Source: a virus
IMG/VR virus record: IMGVR_UViG_3300017971_000283
Coordinates: 1 to 64,000 of that record
Length of the DNA: 64,000 nt
Direction: 5' to 3' (one strand)
The notes beneath the pieces were generated by a model. That model worked only from the letters and a program-made list of their open reading frames with translations, was not told where the DNA came from and did not search any database. Below, one piece after another: positions 20,793-46,745 of this stretch (positions are counted from its first letter, which is position 1; each line of letters opens with the position of its first letter). A program made the position numbers and the translations under genes.

Positions 20793-21404
20793 TTAATTTC
20801 CTCGTTTATGAAATACCCAAAAATAACTATGATGTTTTCTTGCAAAATTTTGTTTTTTCCATTTTCCTGATTTTAACCTATTTTCTTTTAAAAATAAAAA
20901 TAAATCTTTAGCAATAAACCCTCTTGATACTGCTATATTAAAAACATCAATATGAATAAAATTATTTAAACTACCATTAACAACATCTTGACATTTAAAA
21001 AATAAAACTCCATCTTTTTTCAATACTCTATAAGCTTCACCAATTGCCAACTTATAAAAATATAACAATTTTTTTTTGTTTTTAAATAAAGTAAATCTCG
21101 ATATGATTATATTACAATTCTTTTTTATTACTTTTAATGATTTACCACTACTCCATAAAAAAGGAGGATCAATCATTATTGACTTAAAAGTATTTCTTTT
21201 AAATGGCATATTGCACATATCCGAAAAAAATAATGGATTACCTATTGAAAAATCAGAATAAAATTTAGGTTTTTTTATATTCTTATAAAAATTTCCTTTC
21301 GAAAAAGTTGGATCATAATCAATCTGCCCATTTCCATGTAATTCTATCATTTCTTTTAATAATAAATCATGATTAAAATTATATGACTTTATACCTAAAT
21401 ACAT
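20793..21404 (-). CDS. DNA adenine/cytosine methyltransferase
   Basis: The 203-residue product has motif IV DPPF at residues 79-82, the mark of amino-methyltransferases acting on N6-adenine or N4-cytosine. It also has the phage-type HGNGQIDYDPTFSKGNFY segment near 23-40 and RVLKKDGVLFFKCQD near 127. A classical motif I FxGxG is not evident, so the fold may be circularly permuted or minimal. It is placed inside the head gene cluster. It probably modifies phage DNA against host restriction. Target site unknown. Confidence 0.75.
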   Translation of the reverse strand: MYLGIKSYNFNHDLLLKEMIELHGNGQIDYDPTFSKGNFYKNIKKPKFYSDFSIGNPLFFSDMCNMPFKRNTFKSIMIDPPFLWSSGKSLKVIKKNCNIIISRFTLFKNKKKLLYFYKLAIGEAYRVLKKDGVLFFKCQDVVNGSLNNFIHIDVFNIAVSRGFIAKDLFLFLKENRLKSGKWKKQNFARKHHSYFWVFHKRGN

Positions 21405-21413
21405 TTGTTTTCC

Positions 21414-21812
21414 TTATTTATTAATTTCGCCTTTTGTACTATCTTTTGCTGAACTTTTACCAAATATTCTAACTGCCCAATAAACCCATAATGCTCTTAT
21501 TTTCCACATTCCATATTGAATACATTCTTTATACAAAAATTTATCAGCTTTTATTCTTAAACTTAATGGCAATTTTTTCTCTCTAAATAATTGATAAAAA
21601 GCATCATGAACAAGACTTGCTTTTATAAATGCCTCAGTATCAATAGTTGGACCACTTGGGCCATCCCAAGAATATCCCTGAAAAATTACCATATTTCCGG
21701 TTTTATTTAAACCAATAAACTTATTGTTAGCAGAAAAACCGGTTATATTTGTTTCAACAAAATAGTTTTCAGTTAGCTGATACTTATATTTCCTGAGTTT
21801 CCTGTATTTCAT
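21414..21812 (-). CDS. DUF1353 family protein
   Basis: The 132-residue product has the DUF1353 pattern: YSWDGPSGPTIDTEAFIKAS followed by LVHDAFYQLFRE and a basic helical C-terminus. The family is widespread in phage structural regions but its role is not established. The gene overlaps the portal stop by 29 bases. Confidence 0.7.
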   Translation of the reverse strand: MKYRKLRKYKYQLTENYFVETNITGFSANNKFIGLNKTGNMVIFQGYSWDGPSGPTIDTEAFIKASLVHDAFYQLFREKKLPLSLRIKADKFLYKECIQYGMWKIRALWVYWAVRIFGKSSAKDSTKGEINK

Positions 21813-23283
21813 TGTCTTCCTCCTTTCCTACTATACTATCATTTCTCCAATCCAATGCCATATCACTATTCTCCTTTTGTTCTGCTTTTACTTTTTCTTC
21901 TTCTTCTTCAGGTGTCCAACCTTCGGGAAATGGGATTTCACCTTGTCGCAAAATATATCGAATAGTTTCTTTGCTTAATATATTACTCCTGTTTAAGCCA
22001 TCCAAAGCATTAATTAATTCAGATGATATCTCATTAGGATCAAAATCTTGATTATATTGTATAGTATTTTTTGAACTTTTATTTAACCATAAATTAAAAA
22101 TATCCCAACATCTTTTTTCTTTTTCTGAACATCTTAAACTAAATTCAGCAAGTTGTGTTATTAATTGTTGTTTATCCATTTTTTTTGCTTCATAAGTCTC
22201 ACCAACCGCTGTATCTGGCCTTGTCATTCTAAGAGCGATTTCTTTAATGGCTGTTTCAGTTTCCTTAATTGTTGTTCTAATAGTTTCAAAAGATACGTTT
22301 CCAGGTTCAATATACCCCAATTTTGCTTCTGGATTTCCAGGGAAAAGTCCGTTTGATGTTGCCTTAATAAAACCCTTATATTCATCTTCTGTAAGTCCTG
22401 AGCCAAAAAGTAATGGAACAGCACAATCAAATTCAGCCTTATCAAGTTCTGATAATTTCCAATACATTTTGAGTGCAAGCATATCAATATCTGATAATAC
22501 AGATGAACCAACCATTTCTACTTCTCTTTCAAAATAAAAAGGAACAATGGGAACAATTCCAAGATTATGATCGCCTTCCATTAAATTTCCATGTTCATCT
22601 TTTACTATCCCATAGTTTGTTTTATTTCCATCTTGATCAATAAAAGCTATATCACCATTTTCTATATTTTTAAGTACTGCCCATTTTTTAGTATCCCAGT
22701 ATCTTAAAATTGGAAATGATTCTTGTTTTTGAAATGGTTTCGATTCTAATACCATTAAATCTTTGATACAGATATATGTTAGAGTTCCATTTTCATCTCC
22801 CCAATCAATTAAATTTTCGCAAGAAATAATTGTAAAGAATGGTCTTATACCTTCATCTTTATAATCTTTTTGAGTATTAAGTGGTTTTGTTGATCGTGTT
22901 GCATTTACTAAAACAAAACTTATTCCTTGATACAAAGCCCTTTTTGATACCCAGGAAAAAAATAAATCAGCATTATTTTGATAAAGATCAACATTATCAA
23001 AATAATTCATAGCTTCAGTATCTAATTCTCTTTCAGGTTTTTTTCTCCAAATGGCTGAGTTAAAAACTTTTACTATTGGCCCACAGGCATTTCTGTAAAC
23101 TGCTCTTGCCTTTCTTATTTTCCACTGAGCATCAGATTCAAATGGATGTCTCTGAAGATAAGGTTTTTTGATTATATAATCACCACCTTTGTATAAATCC
23201 CTCCAAAACCTATACTTTTCAATCATTATTTTATACGATTTATTTTCTTTAAAAAGTCCATCATTTTTATTTTGAGTTGTCAT
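21784..23283 (-). CDS. Portal protein (DUF4055 type)
   Basis: This 499-residue protein has the DUF4055 portal start (KPYLQRHPFESDAQWKIRKA near residue 40, then NSAIWRKKPE). Further on are the portal-core helices around ELDKAEFDCAVPLLFGSGL and the TRPDTAVGETYEAKKMDKQQ stem region. The C-terminal tail is Glu-rich. The portal forms the dodecameric DNA channel. It lies between the large terminase (15-base gap) and DUF1353. Confidence 0.85.
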   Translation of the reverse strand: MTTQNKNDGLFKENKSYKIMIEKYRFWRDLYKGGDYIIKKPYLQRHPFESDAQWKIRKARAVYRNACGPIVKVFNSAIWRKKPERELDTEAMNYFDNVDLYQNNADLFFSWVSKRALYQGISFVLVNATRSTKPLNTQKDYKDEGIRPFFTIISCENLIDWGDENGTLTYICIKDLMVLESKPFQKQESFPILRYWDTKKWAVLKNIENGDIAFIDQDGNKTNYGIVKDEHGNLMEGDHNLGIVPIVPFYFEREVEMVGSSVLSDIDMLALKMYWKLSELDKAEFDCAVPLLFGSGLTEDEYKGFIKATSNGLFPGNPEAKLGYIEPGNVSFETIRTTIKETETAIKEIALRMTRPDTAVGETYEAKKMDKQQLITQLAEFSLRCSEKEKRCWDIFNLWLNKSSKNTIQYNQDFDPNEISSELINALDGLNRSNILSKETIRYILRQGEIPFPEGWTPEEEEEKVKAEQKENSDMALDWRNDSIVGKEEDNEIQETQEI

Positions 23284-23298
23284 TTTATTTTTCCTTTA

Positions 23299-24747
23299 TT
23301 ATCCTTGTATTGATCCATAAAAACATGAATATGATTTACTTAAAATTTCATATCTTACTGCATCCCACATATGATCTTCACTATCACTATCAACATCATC
23401 CATATTTGAAGGATTTCTGGGGATATTTGGAACAGTTCTTAGAAATTGCTCACAATTATTAAAAACAAAAAAACCTGGATATTCCATACTTCCTTTAGTA
23501 ATTAAATCATTTGAGCTTTCTAATAAATCCCTCATAAGCTCTACGCCTTGAACTCTTGAGTGAGGTTTTTTATTTGCCCATTCCCAAGTAATATTACAAC
23601 CATCAATTTTTAGCTCTGCCATTTTATCAGCAATTGTTCTTTCCCCCGGTGACGAGCTAAAAATCTGATTATCTGCTGGTCCTGGTCTTATCCTACCAAT
23701 ATTGAATTTTTTTTTCAATATTTTTTCTTTAATCAATATTGATTCAGCTATTTTTTTTGGAGTATGGTTGACCCCTTTATTTTCCTTGCCTGTCCATCCG
23801 TAAACTTCATCAATTAAAAATAAAGTCCCTTTTGGAAATGATCTTATTTTATTATTTATTTTTACCGGCGTACCATCTGACTCAGCAAAAAATGGTACTG
23901 CATAAGGGGCTGACGACCCCCAATCAAACGATCTTTCAACTTTCCAATAGGTAGGTATATCAAAGGGCTCAACTACGTGGATTTCAGGTGCCCAGAGATC
24001 ACTAAATGCCCCTCCTGCTACAATATCCCAGGAACCTTCATACCATGCTTTTCTTTTATTTGGATCAGTTATTGATTTTAACTTATTAATATATTTTGGA
24101 TCATTTTTAAGTAAAATTTTATTCTCTTGTACATTCCCATGGATTCTTACTCTTCTATTTTCATCCTTATCTGTAATAATTTTTCCGGCTGGTGCTGGAT
24201 CAACAAAATACTTTTTTACCCACGCATGACCAACTCCATAACTATTTGTTGTAGATCTTGTTCTTGGGATAATTCCTGGGCCGCTTGCTCTCAAACAAGA
24301 TTTATTCATTGACTCATAACATTCAATATCTTTCCAGTTTGTTAATTCCTCCCATCCAATCCAACTAAATTCTTTTCCATGATATACCGCATAATCCTGA
24401 ATATTCCTCATATAAGAAAGAAAAAGAACTTCACCTTCAGGAAAAGTCCATGACATAGCTGAAGCATTAAATTTTGCCCTTGGCTCAATTAATGAAAACC
24501 ACTTTTTTGTTTTAAGTACAATATCACTTAACTGTTTGTATGTATTTCTAAAAAGTATTCCTCTCCAATCAGACTTAAACCCCTTATTACAGTCTTGATA
24601 AAAATCCATTATTAGTGAATCAGTTTTTCCATTGCCTCTTGTCCCATCAAAAAGAACTTCTTCTATAGGACAAGAAAGAAAAAACAATTGAGAACCAGCT
24701 TGTGGTACCCATACTGCATCTTTTATATAATTACTATAATCATTCAT
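23299..24747 (-). CDS. terL: Terminase large subunit
   Basis: The 482-residue packaging ATPase-nuclease has Walker A GTRGNGKTD at residues 35-43, a Walker B-like FSWIGWEEL near 130 and the nuclease start SFDWGSSAPY near 265, with a late acidic region GPADNQIF. It translocates and cuts DNA at the portal. Its start overlaps the preceding methyltransferase by 8 bases. The candidate small subunit is encoded 13 kb away. Confidence 0.9.
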   Translation of the reverse strand: MNDYSNYIKDAVWVPQAGSQLFFLSCPIEEVLFDGTRGNGKTDSLIMDFYQDCNKGFKSDWRGILFRNTYKQLSDIVLKTKKWFSLIEPRAKFNASAMSWTFPEGEVLFLSYMRNIQDYAVYHGKEFSWIGWEELTNWKDIECYESMNKSCLRASGPGIIPRTRSTTNSYGVGHAWVKKYFVDPAPAGKIITDKDENRRVRIHGNVQENKILLKNDPKYINKLKSITDPNKRKAWYEGSWDIVAGGAFSDLWAPEIHVVEPFDIPTYWKVERSFDWGSSAPYAVPFFAESDGTPVKINNKIRSFPKGTLFLIDEVYGWTGKENKGVNHTPKKIAESILIKEKILKKKFNIGRIRPGPADNQIFSSSPGERTIADKMAELKIDGCNITWEWANKKPHSRVQGVELMRDLLESSNDLITKGSMEYPGFFVFNNCEQFLRTVPNIPRNPSNMDDVDSDSEDHMWDAVRYEILSKSYSCFYGSIQG

Positions 24748-25567
24748 TATTTAATCTTTTCCAATATGTTGGCCTATTATTCCAAAGTCTTGTTTTTATC
24801 TTTTCATATCCTAAGGATCGCATTTCTCTATTAAATATTCGAGATATTTTATCATTAGTTATAAATGCTCCATGTTTATCAGCATATATATTAAAGTGTC
24901 CTATAGCTCTAGTGTTAAATGAATTTGCAATCAAGAAATACCTTGGAGACAATTTTCTAACAATTTCGTGTAAATGATAAATTGGATATTGTATATGTTC
25001 AAAATATTCTGATGCAAAAATTAAATCAATATCTTTTGAAATATTATCGATTTCGTAACAAATGTCAAATTGATATTTATTTTTTATAACTTCAATAAAT
25101 TTGGATTGTTTTGTAAATTCAATATTTGTTCCAATTACATTTGAATTAGGGAAAGTTAATTTTAATGCGGCAGATGTATATCCAATACCACATCCCAAAT
25201 CAACAATATTTTTAACTTTTTCTAAATCTTTTTTTATAGAAGTATCAAATAATGACTTTCTATCTGATATTGCCATTATATATTTCCGTGAATATACTCT
25301 CCAGCATGCCCATAATTCAGATAGATAATAATCGTGGTCATATAAATTAAAATCAGGGTTGTTATTTTCTAATGATTTATACCATAAATTTTCAAGTTGT
25401 TGACTTTCTTTTAAACTTTTTCTTATATTACCATTTCCATTTAAGTATCTTATAGTATTTTTTGCAATATTATAAATCCTACCTATTTTTGCTTCTGGAT
25501 TTATTTTTTTATAGATCAATAAAAATCTTTTTAATCCATCATCTGATCTTTCATTTAATATATTCAT
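24740..25567 (-). CDS. Class I SAM-dependent methyltransferase
   Basis: The 275-residue product has motif I VDLGCGIGYTS at residues 122-132 and an acidic strand-2 region, then DLIFASEYFEHI in the motif IV position. This is the Rossmann-type fold seen in small-molecule, sugar or RNA methyltransferases rather than DNA base enzymes with DPPY. It overlaps the glycosyltransferase gene by ATGA, so the two are likely co-translated and may act in one pathway, for example on a DNA-linked sugar. Substrate unknown. Confidence 0.7.
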   Translation of the reverse strand: MNILNERSDDGLKRFLLIYKKINPEAKIGRIYNIAKNTIRYLNGNGNIRKSLKESQQLENLWYKSLENNNPDFNLYDHDYYLSELWACWRVYSRKYIMAISDRKSLFDTSIKKDLEKVKNIVDLGCGIGYTSAALKLTFPNSNVIGTNIEFTKQSKFIEVIKNKYQFDICYEIDNISKDIDLIFASEYFEHIQYPIYHLHEIVRKLSPRYFLIANSFNTRAIGHFNIYADKHGAFITNDKISRIFNREMRSLGYEKIKTRLWNNRPTYWKRLNNE

Positions 25568-26400
25568 TTTTTCTTCAACTCCATATTGTAATTATCTATA
25601 CCCTTTTCTATTTTTACACCTTCTTTTTTTATTAACTTATTTTTTTTAAATTGACTATAATTTACTGAATGTTGCCATCTTCCCCATTTTCTTACAACTT
25701 TTGTAACATCAGGATGTTGTCTTTGTAATGATCTTGCCATTTCAAGCCTACCATCAAAATTAGAGTCTTGTTTATAAAGTTCATCAGTATTCCCACCTTT
25801 CATTACCATTGTTGTTGTTTTTTCAACTAGAAATGCATTAAATAAAATTGTACACCATCCTCCCTTTAAAGCTCTTAAACATAAGTCAGTATCTTCATTA
25901 TATTTTCCTCTCCATCTATATTTCAAACTATTATTTACTAAGATGCAAGAATAAATACGAGTATTTATTCTAAATGGCACATCTTTCCATTTTTGCCTAA
26001 CAAACATAAAGTATTGTGGGCCTGAAAAAGCAATATTTGTATATCTATCTGTGAAATCTTCCATTGCTTTAAATATCATAGGTGAAAATACTTTTAATTT
26101 TCTATTTTTATTCCACCTATGAAATCCTCTCATATTATCATCCATTATCCAATGTCTTTCATGACCTTCTTCTAAAGAATGTTTCCAAACAAAATTTCTT
26201 GCTGGTATTGATCCCTTTCCCAAATTACTAAAAGGCAAAACTATTATTTTTTTTGGATCAATAACATTAGAATATTCGTCAAATTCTTGAGGCTCAATAA
26301 CTATTCTATAAGGACAATTCATCTTTTCAAGAGCTTTACTTGTTAATCTGCTTTCCCATCGTCCTTTAGAAATAATGTATATTGGATATTTATTTTTCAT
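25564..26400 (-). CDS. GT-A glycosyltransferase (TET-associated type)
   Basis: The 278-residue product starts YPIYIISKGRWESRLTSKAL and YRIVIEPQEFDEY, the opening of the TET/JBP-associated glycosyltransferase family. HWIMDDN near residue 92 fits the metal-binding DxD position, and EDTDLCLRALKGGW near 180 the C-terminal acceptor motif. Relatives are proposed to glycosylate hypermodified bases in phage DNA. No TET/JBP oxygenase gene is in this window. It overlaps both neighbours, a ParB-domain gene and a methyltransferase. Confidence 0.65.
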   Translation of the reverse strand: MKNKYPIYIISKGRWESRLTSKALEKMNCPYRIVIEPQEFDEYSNVIDPKKIIVLPFSNLGKGSIPARNFVWKHSLEEGHERHWIMDDNMRGFHRWNKNRKLKVFSPMIFKAMEDFTDRYTNIAFSGPQYFMFVRQKWKDVPFRINTRIYSCILVNNSLKYRWRGKYNEDTDLCLRALKGGWCTILFNAFLVEKTTTMVMKGGNTDELYKQDSNFDGRLEMARSLQRQHPDVTKVVRKWGRWQHSVNYSQFKKNKLIKKEGVKIEKGIDNYNMELKKK

Positions 26401-27091
26401 CGTAATATTCAGTTGTCATATCTATTTTTTTTGCTTCTGGATACCAAATCGATCTTGTTTTTTCTGTAATTTTTTGATCAATAAATGTAGCAAAAGAATT
26501 AAGATCATCAATACTCAAAAAATTTACTGTTATTGAAAATTTTGCCCCTAAATCTTCATTTTCACATTCCGGCATACCCTCCCATTCTTCAATATAATTA
26601 ATTTCTTCATCTTCATCTTCATCTTCATCTTCATTATTAAAATTAAAATCAATCATTTCCCATTCTTCATCAATACCATATTCGCTTAATTCTTCAATTG
26701 TAAAATTATCAGATAGCTTTTCTACTTCCTCATTAAGTAAATCAAGATCCCAATCTGATTCCCCGGATCTGTTATCAACAATCCTTGCAAGCCTTACCTG
26801 TTCTTCTGTCAAATCATCTCTTATAACTACAGGAAAAGCCTTCATATTAAGCTCATATGCTGCCTTAAGCCTTCCATGCCCTTTGATAATCATATTATCT
26901 TCTTCCCAGATTACAATGGGCTGATCTGGTTTAATTACTTTTTCTCTTTCCTTATCACTCATATTTTGAACATCTTCTTTAGTCAAACCAGTACCAATGA
27001 GAATTGAATTTATGATCCAATCAACATTATGATTCTTTGCATTTTTTGGATATGGAATTATATCATCTAATTTTCTTTTTATAACTTTCAT
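26390..27091 (-). CDS. ParB/Srx-fold nuclease-like protein
   Basis: The 233-residue product has the ParB N-terminal fold: DIIPYPKNAKNH at the start, then IIKGHGRLKAAYELNMKAFP near 80 and RLARIVDNRSGESDWDLDLL near 115. There is no helix-turn-helix as in partition ParB proteins, so parS binding is not expected. Standalone phage proteins of this type usually accompany DNA-modification genes, as here. An Asp/Glu run near 165 is low complexity. Confidence 0.75.
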   Translation of the reverse strand: MKVIKRKLDDIIPYPKNAKNHNVDWIINSILIGTGLTKEDVQNMSDKEREKVIKPDQPIVIWEEDNMIIKGHGRLKAAYELNMKAFPVVIRDDLTEEQVRLARIVDNRSGESDWDLDLLNEEVEKLSDNFTIEELSEYGIDEEWEMIDFNFNNEDEDEDEDEEINYIEEWEGMPECENEDLGAKFSITVNFLSIDDLNSFATFIDQKITEKTRSIWYPEAKKIDMTTEYYDEK

Positions 27092-27121
27092 TTTACTTTT
27101 CTCCTTACTTATTTGTTTTTA

Positions 27122-27325
27122 TTATTCTCCAAAACTACCCATTGGCAATTCTTCATCTGTCTTACCATTAATAATTGTTATTTTTTCAGGCTTTTTAATT
27201 GGATCGATATCTTCAATTCCAATTGGCTTGTCGGGAATAATACCCGAATCATCAGGAACTATTTTATTTGAAGCGGCACACCCAATCATACAAAATGATA
27301 TAGTAATGATAAAAAATATTTTCAT
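27122..27325 (-). CDS. Small lipoprotein
   Basis: The 67-residue product has a signal peptide MKIFFIITISFCMIGCAAS with lipobox MIGC (cleavage before Cys16). The mature part of about 52 residues is Pro/Ile/Asp-rich and probably extended. It would be anchored to a membrane by lipid. Phage lipoproteins of this size often block receptors or superinfecting DNA, but the role here is unknown. Confidence 0.7.
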   Translation of the reverse strand: MKIFFIITISFCMIGCAASNKIVPDDSGIIPDKPIGIEDIDPIKKPEKITIINGKTDEELPMGSFGE

Positions 27326-27326
27326 T

Positions 27327-27986
27327 TTAATTTTCTCCTATACTATCAAAAATTATTGGGACTTGTTTTTTTACATCTTCTAAGCAATTTTTCATTAATT
27401 TTCTTATTTGTGGATGAGCTTGTTTTGAAGTTCTTAATTTAAAAATATGTTTCCACTCTCTTAAATTTGCAGTCATAATTATTTCGGTTTTCAAACTGTT
27501 GGGCAATACTTCTCTCGCTTGTTCCGGTCTCCATCCATTATTAATTAAATTATTATAATCAAATTTTGAATTAAGACAAGATTGAAGAAAAACTTTGTGG
27601 GTGAAAGGGATATCATCTTTAAAAAAAATACATGAAGTTTCTTTATACTTTCCCAAATACTTTTTATCCATCCAAACAGGGAGAATGAAAAGTATATCTC
27701 GGTTTTTGTAATTAATATAACGGGTTGACTCAACAGATAAAGAACAAATCCTATGTCTTGCAATCTCCTGTAAGACTCCTCGATTTGTAATAAACTTAAT
27801 AGTAATTATAGCATGTTCAATTACCGATTCATGTCCCTTATTGATAATCATTTTAGTAAATTTTTCAGATGATTCTTTATTAATTTTGGACTCGCTTTTA
27901 TAGCAAGTCCGTCCAGCTTTCTCAATTAATTCAAGAGGACAATTATCAATTTTTATAATTTTATGACTTTGTTCAATTATCTCCAT
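27327..27986 (-). CDS. thyX: Flavin-dependent thymidylate synthase
   Basis: The 219-residue ThyX carries the diagnostic RHRx7S motif (RHR at 77-79, Ser87, then TRY). It makes dTMP from dUMP with FAD and methylenetetrahydrofolate. With the dCTP deaminase at 41.5 kb it supports a phage-driven dTMP supply suited to the A+T-rich genome. Its stop abuts the small lipoprotein start. Confidence 0.95.
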   Translation of the reverse strand: MEIIEQSHKIIKIDNCPLELIEKAGRTCYKSESKINKESSEKFTKMIINKGHESVIEHAIITIKFITNRGVLQEIARHRICSLSVESTRYINYKNRDILFILPVWMDKKYLGKYKETSCIFFKDDIPFTHKVFLQSCLNSKFDYNNLINNGWRPEQAREVLPNSLKTEIIMTANLREWKHIFKLRTSKQAHPQIRKLMKNCLEDVKKQVPIIFDSIGEN

Positions 27987-32422: not shown

Positions 32423-32944
32423 ATGGAAATTATTATTTCAAAAGAATCAATCCATGCTCTCAACGAAATAATGCATGAACTATATATCGAATCGTACAAA
32501 ATAAAAGGTATTGGGTGTGCATTATATTCAATGGGATTAAAAGGCTTTAATTCTTTTACTAAAAATGAATCACACGAGAGATGGAAATATGGAAGTAAGG
32601 TAAAAAAATATATTTTGAATTTTGGTGGTAGAGTCATTCTCCCTATGATTCCTGAATCCGAAACAAAATACCCTAATGCTCTTGATGCAGTTACGATGAT
32701 TCAAACTATGGATAGAGGATTGCTTGAATTTATTAATCAAAAAACTAAAGAAATCGCCGAAAAAAAAGAATGGGTTGTTGTAGATTATATCGGGGAAATT
32801 TGTGAAGATATGATAAAAGAATTTAATGAAGTATCAGCAGTTGTTGAGAAAACAAAAATGATTGGTCCAGATCTTGTTGGATATGATATTTTTCTTTATG
32901 AACATTACCAACCAATGTCTGATAAAAGAATTGGAAAATATTAA
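32423..32944 (+). CDS. Ferritin-like protein with degenerate iron site
   Basis: The 173-residue product aligns by eye with bacterial ferritins: HELYIESYKIKGIG, then LKGFNSFTKNESHERWKYGS, then NFGGRVILPMIPE, then a third helix (MDRGLLEFINQKTKEIAEKK) and VDYIGEICEDMIKEF. The spacing matches a four-helix ferritin fold. Most ferroxidase residues are replaced: the second-helix Glu and His positions read Arg53 and Tyr56, and the third-helix Glu is Asp. Iron oxidation is therefore doubtful. It could be a structural or decoy cage protein. It has its own terminator. Confidence 0.55.
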   Translation: MEIIISKESIHALNEIMHELYIESYKIKGIGCALYSMGLKGFNSFTKNESHERWKYGSKVKKYILNFGGRVILPMIPESETKYPNALDAVTMIQTMDRGLLEFINQKTKEIAEKKEWVVVDYIGEICEDMIKEFNEVSAVVEKTKMIGPDLVGYDIFLYEHYQPMSDKRIGKY

Positions 32945-42815: not shown

Positions 42816-42847
42816 ATAGCCCGGTAGCTATATAGCTACCGGGCTAT
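42816..42847. repeat. 32-bp perfect palindrome between HU gene and next gene
   Basis: The sequence ATAGCCCGGTAGCTAT is followed by its exact complement. It could fold as a hairpin with a minimal loop or bind a dimer. No U tract follows on either strand. The GCCGGTAGCTAT core is partly echoed by the hairpin at 50.2 kb. Confidence 0.7.
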
Positions 42848-42853
42848 AAAAAT

Positions 42854-43213
42854 TTAAATATTTGCTATTGCATCTTTCAAAACTGATGAAGGTTTAAACT
42901 TAAGAATATGCTTTGCCTTCACGTTTACATTTTCACCTGTTTTTGGATTCCTCCTGATACAAGCATCCTTGGCAATTACCTTAAAATTTCCAAAACCAAC
43001 AATATTTACATCCTTTCCCTCTAGTAGATTTTCTTGAATAATATCAAGAATAGTTATAACCGTTTTTTTTGCCTCTGAAGAATTCAAATCAAGTTCAAAA
43101 GATACTTCTTCAATAAGTTCTTTTCTACTTATAGAATCATTTGTTTCTTTTTTTACTTTTTTTGTTTCTTTTTTTACTTTTTTTGTTTCTTTTTTTGAAG
43201 TTTTCTTAGCCAT
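42854..43213 (-). CDS. HU/IHF-family DNA-binding protein
   Basis: The 119-residue product has a typical HU core from residue 27: SRKELIEEVSFELDLNSSEA, GKDVNIVGFGNFKVI, the DNA-binding arm RRNPKTGENVNVKAKHILKF and a final helix. Residues 1-25 are an added Lys-rich tail with repeated KKVKKET units. HU bends and compacts DNA; the tail may strengthen binding. Confidence 0.9.
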   Translation of the reverse strand: MAKKTSKKETKKVKKETKKVKKETNDSISRKELIEEVSFELDLNSSEAKKTVITILDIIQENLLEGKDVNIVGFGNFKVIAKDACIRRNPKTGENVNVKAKHILKFKPSSVLKDAIANI

Positions 43214-43288: not shown

Positions 43289-43540
43289 TTATACTTCTTG
43301 AAAATATTTGATTACTTTATCAAGTGAATTTATATGTCTTTCTCCAAATTCACATTTACCACTATTTAATATATATCCTTTTAACCACCATAAAATATCA
43401 TTAAGCGCATCAATTTCATGTTGAACTATTAGTTCTTTATTTTCATATTCTTTTGAAATTTCTTCTAAGATATAAATTGCCTCTCTTAGTTTCGGACATC
43501 CTGTTTGTTCACCACCTCTAAATCCTTCTAATGAACCTCT
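43289..43540 (-). pseudogene. Start-less coding segment next to the parS palindrome
   Basis: A frame ending at TAA 43289 encodes RGSLEGFRGGEQTGCPKLRE, YILEEISKEYENKELIVQHE and ILWWLKGYILNSGKCEFGER, clearly coding in character. No ATG, GTG or TTG opens it, and a TGA inside the palindrome closes it upstream. Either the palindrome has replaced its beginning or a rare start codon is used. Confidence 0.5.
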
Positions 43541-43587
43541 ATATAGCCCTATATTGTTTCACGTGAAACAATATAGGGCTATATAGA
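43538..43587. promoter_or_regulatory. 50-bp perfect palindrome centred on a consensus parS site
   Basis: Positions 43555-43570 read TGTTTCACGTGAAACA, identical to the 16-bp parS consensus bound by chromosomal ParB (Spo0J) proteins in many bacteria. The dyad extends perfectly to 50 bp with arms TCTATATAGCCCTATAT. It lies between two short coding segments. No ParA, and no ParB with a DNA-binding domain, is in the window, so host ParB is the candidate binder. Confidence 0.85.
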
Positions 43588-43589
43588 TT

Positions 43590-43739
43590 TTAAATCTGAT
43601 CCATCAATACCATATCTTCTCCACTATATTTACAATCACATATAGAAGAAGGATTTTCATTAACAATACCATCATAACAACAGTTTGCTATTTGTATTTT
43701 TCTTAATACTGCTATTTGTTCTTTATCCATTTTCAACAT
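43590..43739 (-). CDS. 49-residue Cys-containing protein
   Basis: The gene begins at ATG 43739, adjoining the SbcC-like stop, with AAAGGAAAAG upstream. The product (MLKMDKEQIAVLRKIQIANC) has CCYDG and ICDCKY, possibly a metal site. It ends three bases before the parS palindrome. Confidence 0.5.
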   Translation of the reverse strand: MLKMDKEQIAVLRKIQIANCCYDGIVNENPSSICDCKYSGEDMVLMDQI

Positions 43740-44396
43740 TTACTTTTCCTTTAATTCAATAATATTTTCAGTTAAATTTCGAATATTTTCATCATGAGTT
43801 AATAAAATAATTTGGAAACCTAATTTTTTTGATACTTCTTGAATAAAAGAATATGCCATTTCCCTCATTTTACCAAGATGTAAGAATGGTTCATCTAAAA
43901 AAATTAACCTTCTTTTTCTAGGGCTTTCAAAACAAATCATTATGACTCTCAATGCAAAACCTACTATATCAATCGCCCCATCTCCAACCCCATATTTTAA
44001 ACTACGTTTTTTATTATTATCTAAAATATGGGGTTGGAATTCAATTTGGTTTCTTTTAATTTCTGAAACCAATATAAATTTGTAAGTTTCAAAAATATTC
44101 TCTAGAGCCTTTGATACCAGAGATTCTACTTTATTTTTGAAATTTACTTGCGTTTTTTGATTCGCAAGCATTATAATATTCATTGCTCGTTTATTATTAT
44201 TAACTTTTTTATTCAAACTCTCAATAGAATCTTGAAAATTCTCTTTTTGAGAATTTAAATGATCGAGCTTCCCTTTTATTTGCTGGATTCTATTTTTCAT
44301 TTCTAGGCCACATTTCTCCATCTTCAAAAATCCTGTAAATTTGTATTTTATTAATAAAAGGATTTTGTCTTCCATTTTCTTAATAATTTGATTCAT
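43740..44396 (-). CDS. Rad50/SbcC-like ATPase, C-terminal half
   Basis: The 218-residue product has the C-terminal ABC-ATPase parts: a coiled coil (residues 30-75), a signature-like GVGDGAIDIVGFALRVI near 135, Walker B RRLIFLDEPFLHLG near 165 and the H-loop ILLTHDE near 197. The matching N-terminal half, with Walker A and zinc hook, is the separate gene at 45726-46745. Coding sequence extends upstream of this ATG to about 44465, reachable from ATG 44476 only by a -1 step. The halves should assemble with the nuclease between them into an Mre11-Rad50 type complex. Confidence 0.75.
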   Translation of the reverse strand: MNQIIKKMEDKILLLIKYKFTGFLKMEKCGLEMKNRIQQIKGKLDHLNSQKENFQDSIESLNKKVNNNKRAMNIIMLANQKTQVNFKNKVESLVSKALENIFETYKFILVSEIKRNQIEFQPHILDNNKKRSLKYGVGDGAIDIVGFALRVIMICFESPRKRRLIFLDEPFLHLGKMREMAYSFIQEVSKKLGFQIILLTHDENIRNLTENIIELKEK

Positions 44397-44464
44397 TTTT
44401 TCTTCTGTAAATTCAGATTTAATTATTAATTCCCACGGATTTACTGGACCAGAATCTTTGTAGA

Positions 44465-44476
44465 TAAAAAACTCAT
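44465..44476 (-). other. Slippery heptamer at the start of the SbcC C-half
   Basis: ATG 44476 is followed by AGT TTT TTA in frame 0. The heptamer T TTT TTA (44471-44465) is in the correct X XXY YYZ phase for -1 slippage. A -1 step gives IYKDSGPVNPWELIIKSEFT and joins the downstream ATPase frame with no stop. AAGGGA precedes the ATG. A one-base deletion would look the same. Confidence 0.5.
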
Positions 44477-44480
44477 TTTT

Positions 44481-44636
44481 TTATCCCTTATAATCAGTAT
44501 ATCTTTTGTGTTTAAACAAATGATCTTTTGCTCTTACACAAAAACACCCATTTATAAATTTATAATCACATTGATACTCATATTTTCCAGTCCTATTCCA
44601 CATAAAATTATTGTATATCCATTTAAATATTTTCAT
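44481..44636 (-). CDS. 51-residue protein
   Basis: The product (MKIFKWIYNNFMWNRTGKYE) has CDYKFINGCFC near the middle and a basic end. Its ATG overlaps the stop of the preceding coiled-coil gene. Unknown function, within the recombination operon. Confidence 0.5.
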   Translation of the reverse strand: MKIFKWIYNNFMWNRTGKYEYQCDYKFINGCFCVRAKDHLFKHKRYTDYKG

Positions 44637-44872
44637 TACTCCTCCATTTCATCTAAAAGTTTTTCTATCTTTGAAAAAAGTTTTTCTATCTTTTTATTTT
44701 CATTACCAATGATATCTTCTACTTGCTTAATATTTTTATTAACATCTTTCTTTAACAACTTTATATCATATTTTTTTTCAATTTCCTTTTTTATTGAAAA
44801 AAATTCCTTTTCTATTACTTTTTTTTGTGCAATTAATTCATCAACTCGTTTTTTTAATCTTACAATATCCAT
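44636..44872 (-). CDS. Small coiled-coil protein in the Mre11/Rad50 operon
   Basis: The whole 78-residue product is a Lys/Glu heptad coil (LKKRVDELIAQKKVIEKEFF, then IEKLFSKIEKLLDEMEE). It overlaps the nuclease stop. It could supply part of the coiled-coil arm missing from the split ATPase or bridge its halves; this is inferred from position. Confidence 0.55.
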   Translation of the reverse strand: MDIVRLKKRVDELIAQKKVIEKEFFSIKKEIEKKYDIKLLKKDVNKNIKQVEDIIGNENKKIEKLFSKIEKLLDEMEE

Positions 44873-45726
44873 TATTCCTTCTCCAGCTCATATATGATTT
44901 CTTGAATCTCTTTTGGTTCATTTTCTATCGATATCTTTAATATATCATAAAAACCAAAAGAAGTTTCATTTTTCATTTGAATTTCTTCAATAAAATCATC
45001 AAAGCCCTGTTTATCAAAGCCTTGAAGCTCTATTTTTTCTTCAAAAACATCAGAAATAAAAGGGATCTCTATCCTTTTGACATTAGGTTTTTTTTCAATC
45101 CAGTCCAAAACATAAAAACAAGGATTATGTTTTTTCAATGTAATATCTTTTCTTAGCATTGGTCCGGTATTTAAAATATTATCTTTGAAAAATTCTTTAT
45201 GGATATCACCACACAAAACAAATCTAAAATCTTTTAATTTTTGAAAATCAACTAAATTATGACCATGATAATTTTTTTCTAATGCTATTGGGGAGTGAGC
45301 TACTAATAAATTTTTTTGAGTTTTATCATTAACCTTTGGAATGTCCTTTTGATTCCATGATTGCCCATAAATAAAAACACTATCAATAAAAACCGGTTGA
45401 TCATTGAGTATTTTCAAATAACCAGTTTTATTAAGAATACTCATATTTGTATTTTTTATATTCCTGAAAAGCATATCGTGTTGGCCAGATACACAATAAA
45501 CAGAAAAACTATATTTTGATAAAAGCTCCATAAAATCTTCAAGCAGGCGATATGATCTTGGCTTATCAAACATATCTCCTGCTTGAAAAATATATTCAAT
45601 ATCATTTTTTTTTGCATAATCAAAAATGAATTTAAGTTTTTCGAACTGAGTTTGATATGTATCATCCTTCCGGGAAAATATGGGCCTGTCAATTAAATGT
45701 AAATCAGATATAAGAATTGCTTCCAT
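44872..45726 (-). CDS. sbcD: Mre11/SbcD-type nuclease
   Basis: ATG 45726 is chosen (AAGGGA upstream, overlapping the previous TAA). The 284-residue product has the calcineurin-type metal motifs in order: SDLHL, AGDMFD, SGQHD, AHSP and GDIH. It would process DNA ends with the Rad50-like halves encoded on both sides. T4 gp47 and T5 D12 play this role in other phages. Confidence 0.85.
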   Translation of the reverse strand: MEAILISDLHLIDRPIFSRKDDTYQTQFEKLKFIFDYAKKNDIEYIFQAGDMFDKPRSYRLLEDFMELLSKYSFSVYCVSGQHDMLFRNIKNTNMSILNKTGYLKILNDQPVFIDSVFIYGQSWNQKDIPKVNDKTQKNLLVAHSPIALEKNYHGHNLVDFQKLKDFRFVLCGDIHKEFFKDNILNTGPMLRKDITLKKHNPCFYVLDWIEKKPNVKRIEIPFISDVFEEKIELQGFDKQGFDDFIEEIQMKNETSFGFYDILKISIENEPKEIQEIIYELEKE

Positions 45727-46745
45727 TAAAATTTCCCTTCGCATATCGGACAAAATTTTTGTTTCTTTTTCTCTTTTTCAAATATCTTCATTTGAACGTC
45801 TAATTTGCGATTTAAAGCGTTCAAATCCAAAAGTAAGGTCTTAACCTTCCGAAAAAAAGATAATCGATCCTTGGTGTCTTTCAGATCCAATAAACTATCT
45901 TTTAACTGATTTGTCTTCTCTAAGATTTGATATCGTTCAAATCTTTCCCGGTACTTATTTAAAAATTCAATTTTTTCTTTTTCTTGTTTCTGGTCATTAT
46001 TTATTTTTTCAACTTGAGATAATAGATTCATTACCCTATCCAAATTCTCAAATCTTTTTATCTCGTTTTGTTTTTTTTGATACTGACTTAATAATTGAAG
46101 TTTTTCTTTTTGTTGTTTTTGATTATCTTTCAACCTTTCATATTTTTTGAAAAATGCTTCAATTATATTAAATTTAGAATACTTTTTAAGTTCATTGTTT
46201 ATACTTATCAAATCATTTTTTCTAATTTCCAACTCCTTTTGTTTTGAATTAATTCTTTTTTTAAGTTTTGAAATCCATTCAAGTGCCTTATCTAATCTCA
46301 AAACTGAATTAAAATACCTACCTATTTCTCCAGCAGATGATTTTGCAAGAAAAACTTCATCAACAGTTCCAAAAACATATTCAGAAAAACCTAAAATATT
46401 CAATATTTCTTCTGGAACCTTTCTATTCAATACCCTAAATTTTTGATCATTTAAATAATACCACTCATCAATAATTTTTGGTTGATTATCTTTTTGAATT
46501 TTTACTTTTTGACATAAACCAAGAATCTTATTTTCTACATTTACTTCAATTTCAACATTCCCTTCTTTTAAGTTATCCGGAAAATATTCCTGGATTCCTG
46601 GTTTTTTAGTAATTAAAAGTTGAACGGCTCTTTGGATTGCCGTTTTTCCTGATTGTGATAATCCAATAATTGCCGTAATATCAGAAAAATCAATCTTAAG
46701 ATTTTTATGACATTGGAAATTTTTTATATGAATTGAATCAATCAT
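45726..46745 (-). CDS. Rad50/SbcC-like ATPase, N-terminal half with zinc hook
   Basis: The 339-residue product starts with IHIKNFQCHKNLKIDFSD and Walker A GLSQSGKTA near 28-36, and has a Q-loop region near 135. It then runs into coiled coil from 160 and stops just after a zinc-hook CPIC (KFCPICEGKF). Normal Rad50 continues through the returning coil to Walker B in one chain. Here the chain is split exactly at the hook. Confidence 0.8.
   Translation of the reverse strand: MIDSIHIKNFQCHKNLKIDFSDITAIIGLSQSGKTAIQRAVQLLITKKPGIQEYFPDNLKEGNVEIEVNVENKILGLCQKVKIQKDNQPKIIDEWYYLNDQKFRVLNRKVPEEILNILGFSEYVFGTVDEVFLAKSSAGEIGRYFNSVLRLDKALEWISKLKKRINSKQKELEIRKNDLISINNELKKYSKFNIIEAFFKKYERLKDNQKQQKEKLQLLSQYQKKQNEIKRFENLDRVMNLLSQVEKINNDQKQEKEKIEFLNKYRERFERYQILEKTNQLKDSLLDLKDTKDRLSFFRKVKTLLLDLNALNRKLDVQMKIFEKEKKKQKFCPICEGKF

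Follow-up and report, generated by a model that had tools for sequence, protein, structure and literature searches.

ParB proteins read a palindromic parS core, and the chromosomal parS of bacteria (the Spo0J/ParB site) has a 16-mer that is identical to the one found in the phage sequence described here. The chromosomal parS sites located near mnmG in Flavobacterium can also lie in perfect dyads of 32-54 bp, as the phage site does. Phage DNA bearing a centromere, as in the present case, is known from the parABS systems of mycobacteriophage RedRock (PMC7157519) and of P1; these phages encode both ParA and ParB and use a parS of their own, whereas neither protein was found in the record studied here. 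An artificial parS placed in phage lambda gave foci during infection when combined with CFP-ParB (PMC13190303), which shows that the assembly of a ParB on phage DNA is possible after injection; natural sites are not addressed by this result. The mobile element SGI1 carries orphan parS-like sites that hijack the ParB of IncC and harm this helper plasmid (PMC10954446), and therefore a mobile element can live off the ParB of another replicon via orphan parS copies.

The phage site resembles the SGI1 sites in that a mobile element carries centromere mimics without having partition genes of its own for them. It differs in that SGI1 targets the ParB of a helper plasmid, as shown experimentally, whereas the phage site would address a ParB of the chromosomal type. 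Unlike chromosomal parS, it is single, resides on a phage, and lies away from any parAB. A further likeness exists with the Gordonia phages Woes and PatrickStar, in which the exact 16-mer is found in perfect dyads of 30-36 bp between small genes and no ParB was found; these phages differ in being unrelated and GC-rich, in having two sites each (one of the two PatrickStar sites being without an extended dyad), and in their arm sequences.

Virus Record and Genomic Setting

The window, i.e., the whole stretch of DNA analysed, comprised 64,000 bp and corresponded to positions 1-64000 of a 69,526-bp IMG/VR virus record, which is possibly incomplete. The record contains tailed-phage genes (terminase, portal, head, and connector proteins), genes for replication and repair (DnaE-like polymerase, clamp loader, DnaB-like helicase, primase, UvsX-like recombinase, and SbcD/SbcC-like proteins), and genes for RNA ligase, ThyX, dCTP deaminase, and a glucosyltransferase. 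No integrase was found among the genes searched in the record. With its own replisome, and with neither integrase nor ParA found among the genes searched, the phage genome looks virulent, which makes plasmid-style partition less likely.

The parS site is thereby placed in a tailed-phage record, away from a chromosomal oriC/parAB, and all genes around it are carried on the minus strand (Table 1). The Rad50/SbcC-like protein encoded at 43740-46745 is apparently split into two pieces that flank SbcD, the N-terminal one with the ATPase and the C-terminal one with FLDEPFLHLG. The protein encoded by the next gene downstream of the site scored 2.5e-24 against the IHF-alpha model, which is under the cut-off of that model, and the Lys-rich motif of its N-terminal tail is repeated (KKETKKVKKETKKVKKET). 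Elsewhere in the window, a short plus-strand block at 30.8-33.2 kb, across which the GC skew falls to near zero, includes a gene for a ferritin-like protein (32423-32944, plus strand; PF00210, 1.4e-12), and genes for a DNA methyltransferase, an HMC-glucosyltransferase-like protein, a ParB-N-like protein, and ThyX are clustered at 20793-27986 as a possible DNA-modification set.

Table 1. Location of the parS site, the perfect dyads and the genes discussed in the text (window coordinates).
Feature	Position	Strand	Remarks
Consensus chromosomal parS 16-mer TGTTTCACGTGAAACA, putative ParB-binding core	43555..43570	.	16/16 match, single copy
Perfect zero-loop dyad, 50 bp, centred on parS	43538..43587	.	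25-bp stem as RNA
Second long perfect dyad, 32 bp	42816..42847	.	After the IHF/HU gene, on the side away from the parS dyad
49-aa ORF, SD-like leader, complete	43590..43739	-	Stop codon 2 bp before the dyad
Open frame without ATG/GTG/TTG start	43289..43558	-	Strong coding signal over 43292-43537
IHF/HU-like DNA-binding protein, Lys-rich N-terminal tail	42854..43213	-	PF00216, 6e-24; next gene downstream of the site
SbcD-like protein	44872-45753	-	Block 43740..46745 directly upstream of the parS site
Rad50/SbcC-like pieces	45726-46745 and 43740-44480	-	Same block 43740..46745
ParB-N-like protein	26390..27091	-	Below Pfam and NCBIfam cut-offs; no HTH domain found

No relatives covering the site were retrieved by megablast, by peptide searches with SbcD and the polymerase, or with a 20-mer from the flank. 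A single further contig of this phage was found (L134; terminase 100% identical), but it ends near 38.5 kb, short of the site, and a site that is known once, from one contig, could be transient. Flavobacterium was considered as the host, for which a common 28-mer (see below) is suggestive, but was rejected since SD-like leaders, which are unusual in Bacteroidota, precede 36 of 52 ORFs.

Partition Genes in the Record

The preliminary description had reported neither ParA nor a DNA-binding ParB in the window, and this held for the full 69.5-kb record at the sensitivity used: the ParA model PF13614, which was found in 14 of 14 control genomes, had no match, and no ParB with a DNA-binding HTH was detected. 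The only candidate was the ParB-N-like protein listed in Table 1, the gene of which lies in DNA-modification-like surroundings next to glucosyltransferase, methyltransferase-like, and thyX genes, and which by these tests is not a partition ParB. With ParA and full ParB not found, a ParABS cassette of a phage-plasmid was rejected as an explanation for the site.

The parS Core

The exact 16-mer claimed in the preliminary description was confirmed with no mismatch, and nothing else within two mismatches of TGTTTCACGTGAAACA was present in the 69,526-bp record. A chance occurrence had been put at less than one in ten thousand; this is correct unconditionally (1.7e-5 occurrences expected in 69.5 kb from base composition) and slightly optimistic when the dyads are taken as given, because a perfect dyad leaves eight free bases, at which the chance of parS is 2.9e-5 per given dyad and approximately 1.7e-4 for the record as a whole, in which six perfect dyads reach 18 bp or more. 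The parS site is real and not a chance match.

The 50-bp Dyad and Its Neighbors

The dyad around the core likewise proved perfect and without a loop over its full 50 bp. Thirty replicates of the window generated under a first-order Markov model contained no perfect dyad longer than 22 bp, whereas the real window has two, of 32 and 50 bp, which have the outer ends ATAGCCC/GGGCTAT in common. Another loop-less perfect dyad of 32 bp is located at 67763-67794 of the record.

Such a structure could be mainly an RNA hairpin (for 3'-end formation, processing, or termination) with the parS center present by chance or by functionless descent. In accordance with this, the dyad RNA has a 25-bp stem and a folding energy of -41.2 kcal/mol for 91 nt (z -8.7), it begins 2 nt past a stop codon, the next gene is also followed by a perfect dyad (32 bp), and parS sites in inoviruses and in Flavobacterium G113 likewise adjoin stop codons. 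Against it stand the half-site chance of about 2e-4 for the record and an enrichment in phages that is specific to the parS 16-mer and does not extend to palindromes of equal dinucleotide content (see below). Termination in particular is contradicted by the transcribed strand: the hairpin is present, but on the minus strand it is followed by GGTTCATTAG with no U-tract, and a weak TTTT occurs on the plus strand only, so that an intrinsic terminator for the minus-strand genes was rejected. Taken together, we regard an element that is mainly an RNA hairpin as unlikely. Searches for a known RNA family at the dyad gave nothing at the gathering score and only sub-threshold chance matches.

The coding pieces that had been described on either side of the element were recovered as the start-less coding frame (43292-43537, minus strand) and the 49-aa ORF ending 2 bp before the dyad. 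The start-less frame scored 0.34 per codon for coding signal, with negative values for the other frames, and its open end is a TGA within the parS core; no relative was found. Its position beside the dyad plausibly fits an insertion or rearrangement of the element. A small gene may accordingly have lost its start to a recent neutral insertion or template switch, which would have brought along a chromosomal parS without any effect of its own. This would leave the recurrence of parS in unrelated phages, with or without long dyads, unexplained, and we give it only a small probability. A translational bypass similar to that of T4 gene 60, joining the 49-aa and the start-less ORFs, was also considered and rejected: the codon before the stop is ATT, and a matching landing codon in frame is lacking near the dyad.

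A perfect phage palindrome of approximately 50 bp is similar in size to the protelomerase sites of N15 and PY54, and the element could in principle be the telomere-resolution site of a comparable linear plasmid prophage or the dyad of a replication origin. The resolvase gene was not found in the record (PF16684 without a match at E≤1), nor was ParA, and the cumulative GC skew does not turn at the site. Both the telomere site and the origin were rejected on these grounds and are considered extremely improbable.

parS Sites in Other Viruses

The parS 16-mer was present in 286 of 50,697 annotated phage records (2.3 Gb) under 27 organism names, a count that includes many close relatives and is not independent, for which reason no P-values are given. 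Among the names were phages of Listeria, Microbacterium, Arthrobacter, Gordonia, Lactobacillus, Bacillus, Ruegeria, Vibrio, and Butyrivibrio, as well as Microviridae and inoviruses, and exact sites were found in the Bacillus subtilis phages B103, Goe1, and Chedec 11. In contrast, two control palindromes with a dinucleotide content identical to that of parS (TTTGTCACGTGACAAA and TTGTTCACGTGAACAA) occurred in 0 and 0 annotated phage records. At least 120 viral contigs carried parS vs. 11 for the first control palindrome. Some of the matches in other phages fall inside genes and may have other causes there.

Sixty other parS-bearing virus records were searched for ParB, namely 21 annotated phages that represent different lineages and, drawn among the matches listed, 39 viral contigs with a length of 15 kb or more. 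A full ParB over the TIGR00180 cut-off was encoded in none of the sixty, and weak partial matches were obtained in only seven, which speaks against contamination by chromosomal origin regions and in favor of the use of another ParB.

Several viral genomes had multiple sites. The bajarodino inoviruses L153 and L154 (5.8-5.9 kb) have six and five exact parS sites per genome, with a start 0-2 nt past a stop codon in many cases. Clusters of three to five exact sites were observed in the viral contigs L016 (2657-3444), L043 (10535-11462), L052, L062, and L009; the whole records of L009 and L062 gave no ParB match.

Long Dyads at Other parS Sites

Perfect dyads of at least 26 bp were present at four of 37 parS sites in annotated phages (0.05 expected), at six of 36 sites in Flavobacterium (0.05 expected), and at two of the 146 sites listed in viral contigs (0.17 expected), the expected counts assuming independent flanks. 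Extended dyads at parS are thus commoner than expected in phages and in Flavobacterium chromosomes, and the long-dyad parS is a natural, recurring form. Since none of the 146 sites listed in other viral contigs had a dyad longer than 28 bp, the 50 bp of the present site are extreme.

In Flavobacterium the dyads measured 54, 38, 34, and 32 bp and, for the loci that were read, lay at mnmG or close to it; that of Flavobacterium G113 (54 bp) directly follows the mnmG stop codon. In the species-genome collection, the central 28-mer of the phage dyad had a single occurrence, located in Flavobacterium terrae between genes reading as ybeY and mnmG; there it is one of three clustered parS sites, the others being the variant TGTTCCACGTGGAACA in a 38-bp dyad and a plain parS. 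Given how many parS sites exist, the 28 bp common to the phage and F. terrae may be a coincidence. A parS cluster near mnmG was observed in many Flavobacterium species (L165-L193, L147), in which TGTTTCACGTGAAACA is mixed with variants of the TGTTCCACGTGGAACA type, some of them in long perfect dyads.

The Gordonia phage dyads measured 36, 32, and 30 bp. Sites 1 and 2 of Woes form a duplicated module with flanks approximately 80% alike and a core conserved at 16 of 16 positions; the arms differ between the two sites yet remain complementary within each (CGTAGGGCAG/CTGCCCTACG vs. CGCTCGA/TCGAGCG), and PatrickStar and Orchid have a third version of the arms in a 32-bp dyad. The preliminary description had envisaged, as an argument against a parS function, a core that varies while the hairpin is kept; Woes displays the opposite, an unchanged core with exchanged arms, in phages of a lineage other than the one studied here.

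Putative Use of Host ParB

We consider it probable that the element is an orphan parS of the chromosomal type which loads host ParB onto the phage DNA, with the arms representing a separate hairpin or a dyad extension. The proposal in the preliminary description that the phage recruits host ParB is sustained as far as the nature of the site is concerned, i.e., the enrichment of the 16-mer, the missing full ParB, and the core and arm pattern in Woes point to a parS-type site; the consequences put forward at the same time (partition, positioning, and disturbance of segregation) are indistinguishable on this evidence. Binding of host ParB, any benefit derived from it, and the origin of the arms are what we infer from these comparisons.

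Following injection of the phage DNA, host ParB would recognize the 16-mer, form a closed CTP clamp, and slide over the adjoining phage DNA, by which the phage genome would be marked as a host-like centromere region. Possible outcomes would be ParA-driven positioning and/or loading of the SMC condensin; alternatively, ParB might merely occupy or shield the phage DNA, being drawn off the chromosome. For ParB, the 17-bp arms that flank the core would be unnecessary. They form a 25-bp hairpin 2 nt past the stop codon that may serve the transcript as a 3'-end or processing hairpin, and snap-back copying, with nucleation at the 16-bp palindrome, may have given rise to them; the two origins would be compatible with each other.

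The site might also act as a decoy that draws ParB off the host parS sites and disturbs host segregation. Phage copy number goes up in infection. The parS copies of SGI1 do destabilize the IncC helper plasmid (PMC10954446), but the phage has just one site per genome, and we regard a decoy as very unlikely.

Extending the orphan-parS interpretation beyond this locus, tailed, filamentous, and microviral phages, mostly without ParB, might independently have gained host-type parS sites in order to load host ParB (and perhaps SMC) onto their DNA, which would represent a general, unnoticed strategy of exploitation, with the arms of the long palindromes separately selected in some lineages. We put this forward tentatively, as a serious possibility that falls somewhat short of a probable one. 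No report of orphan chromosomal parS sites in phages was found in the open-access papers searched. As a lone case the present site is of modest interest, and the general pattern of phages around parS is the more interesting one. If phages do recruit host ParB via orphan parS sites, the segregation and condensin machinery of the host would become part of infection biology.
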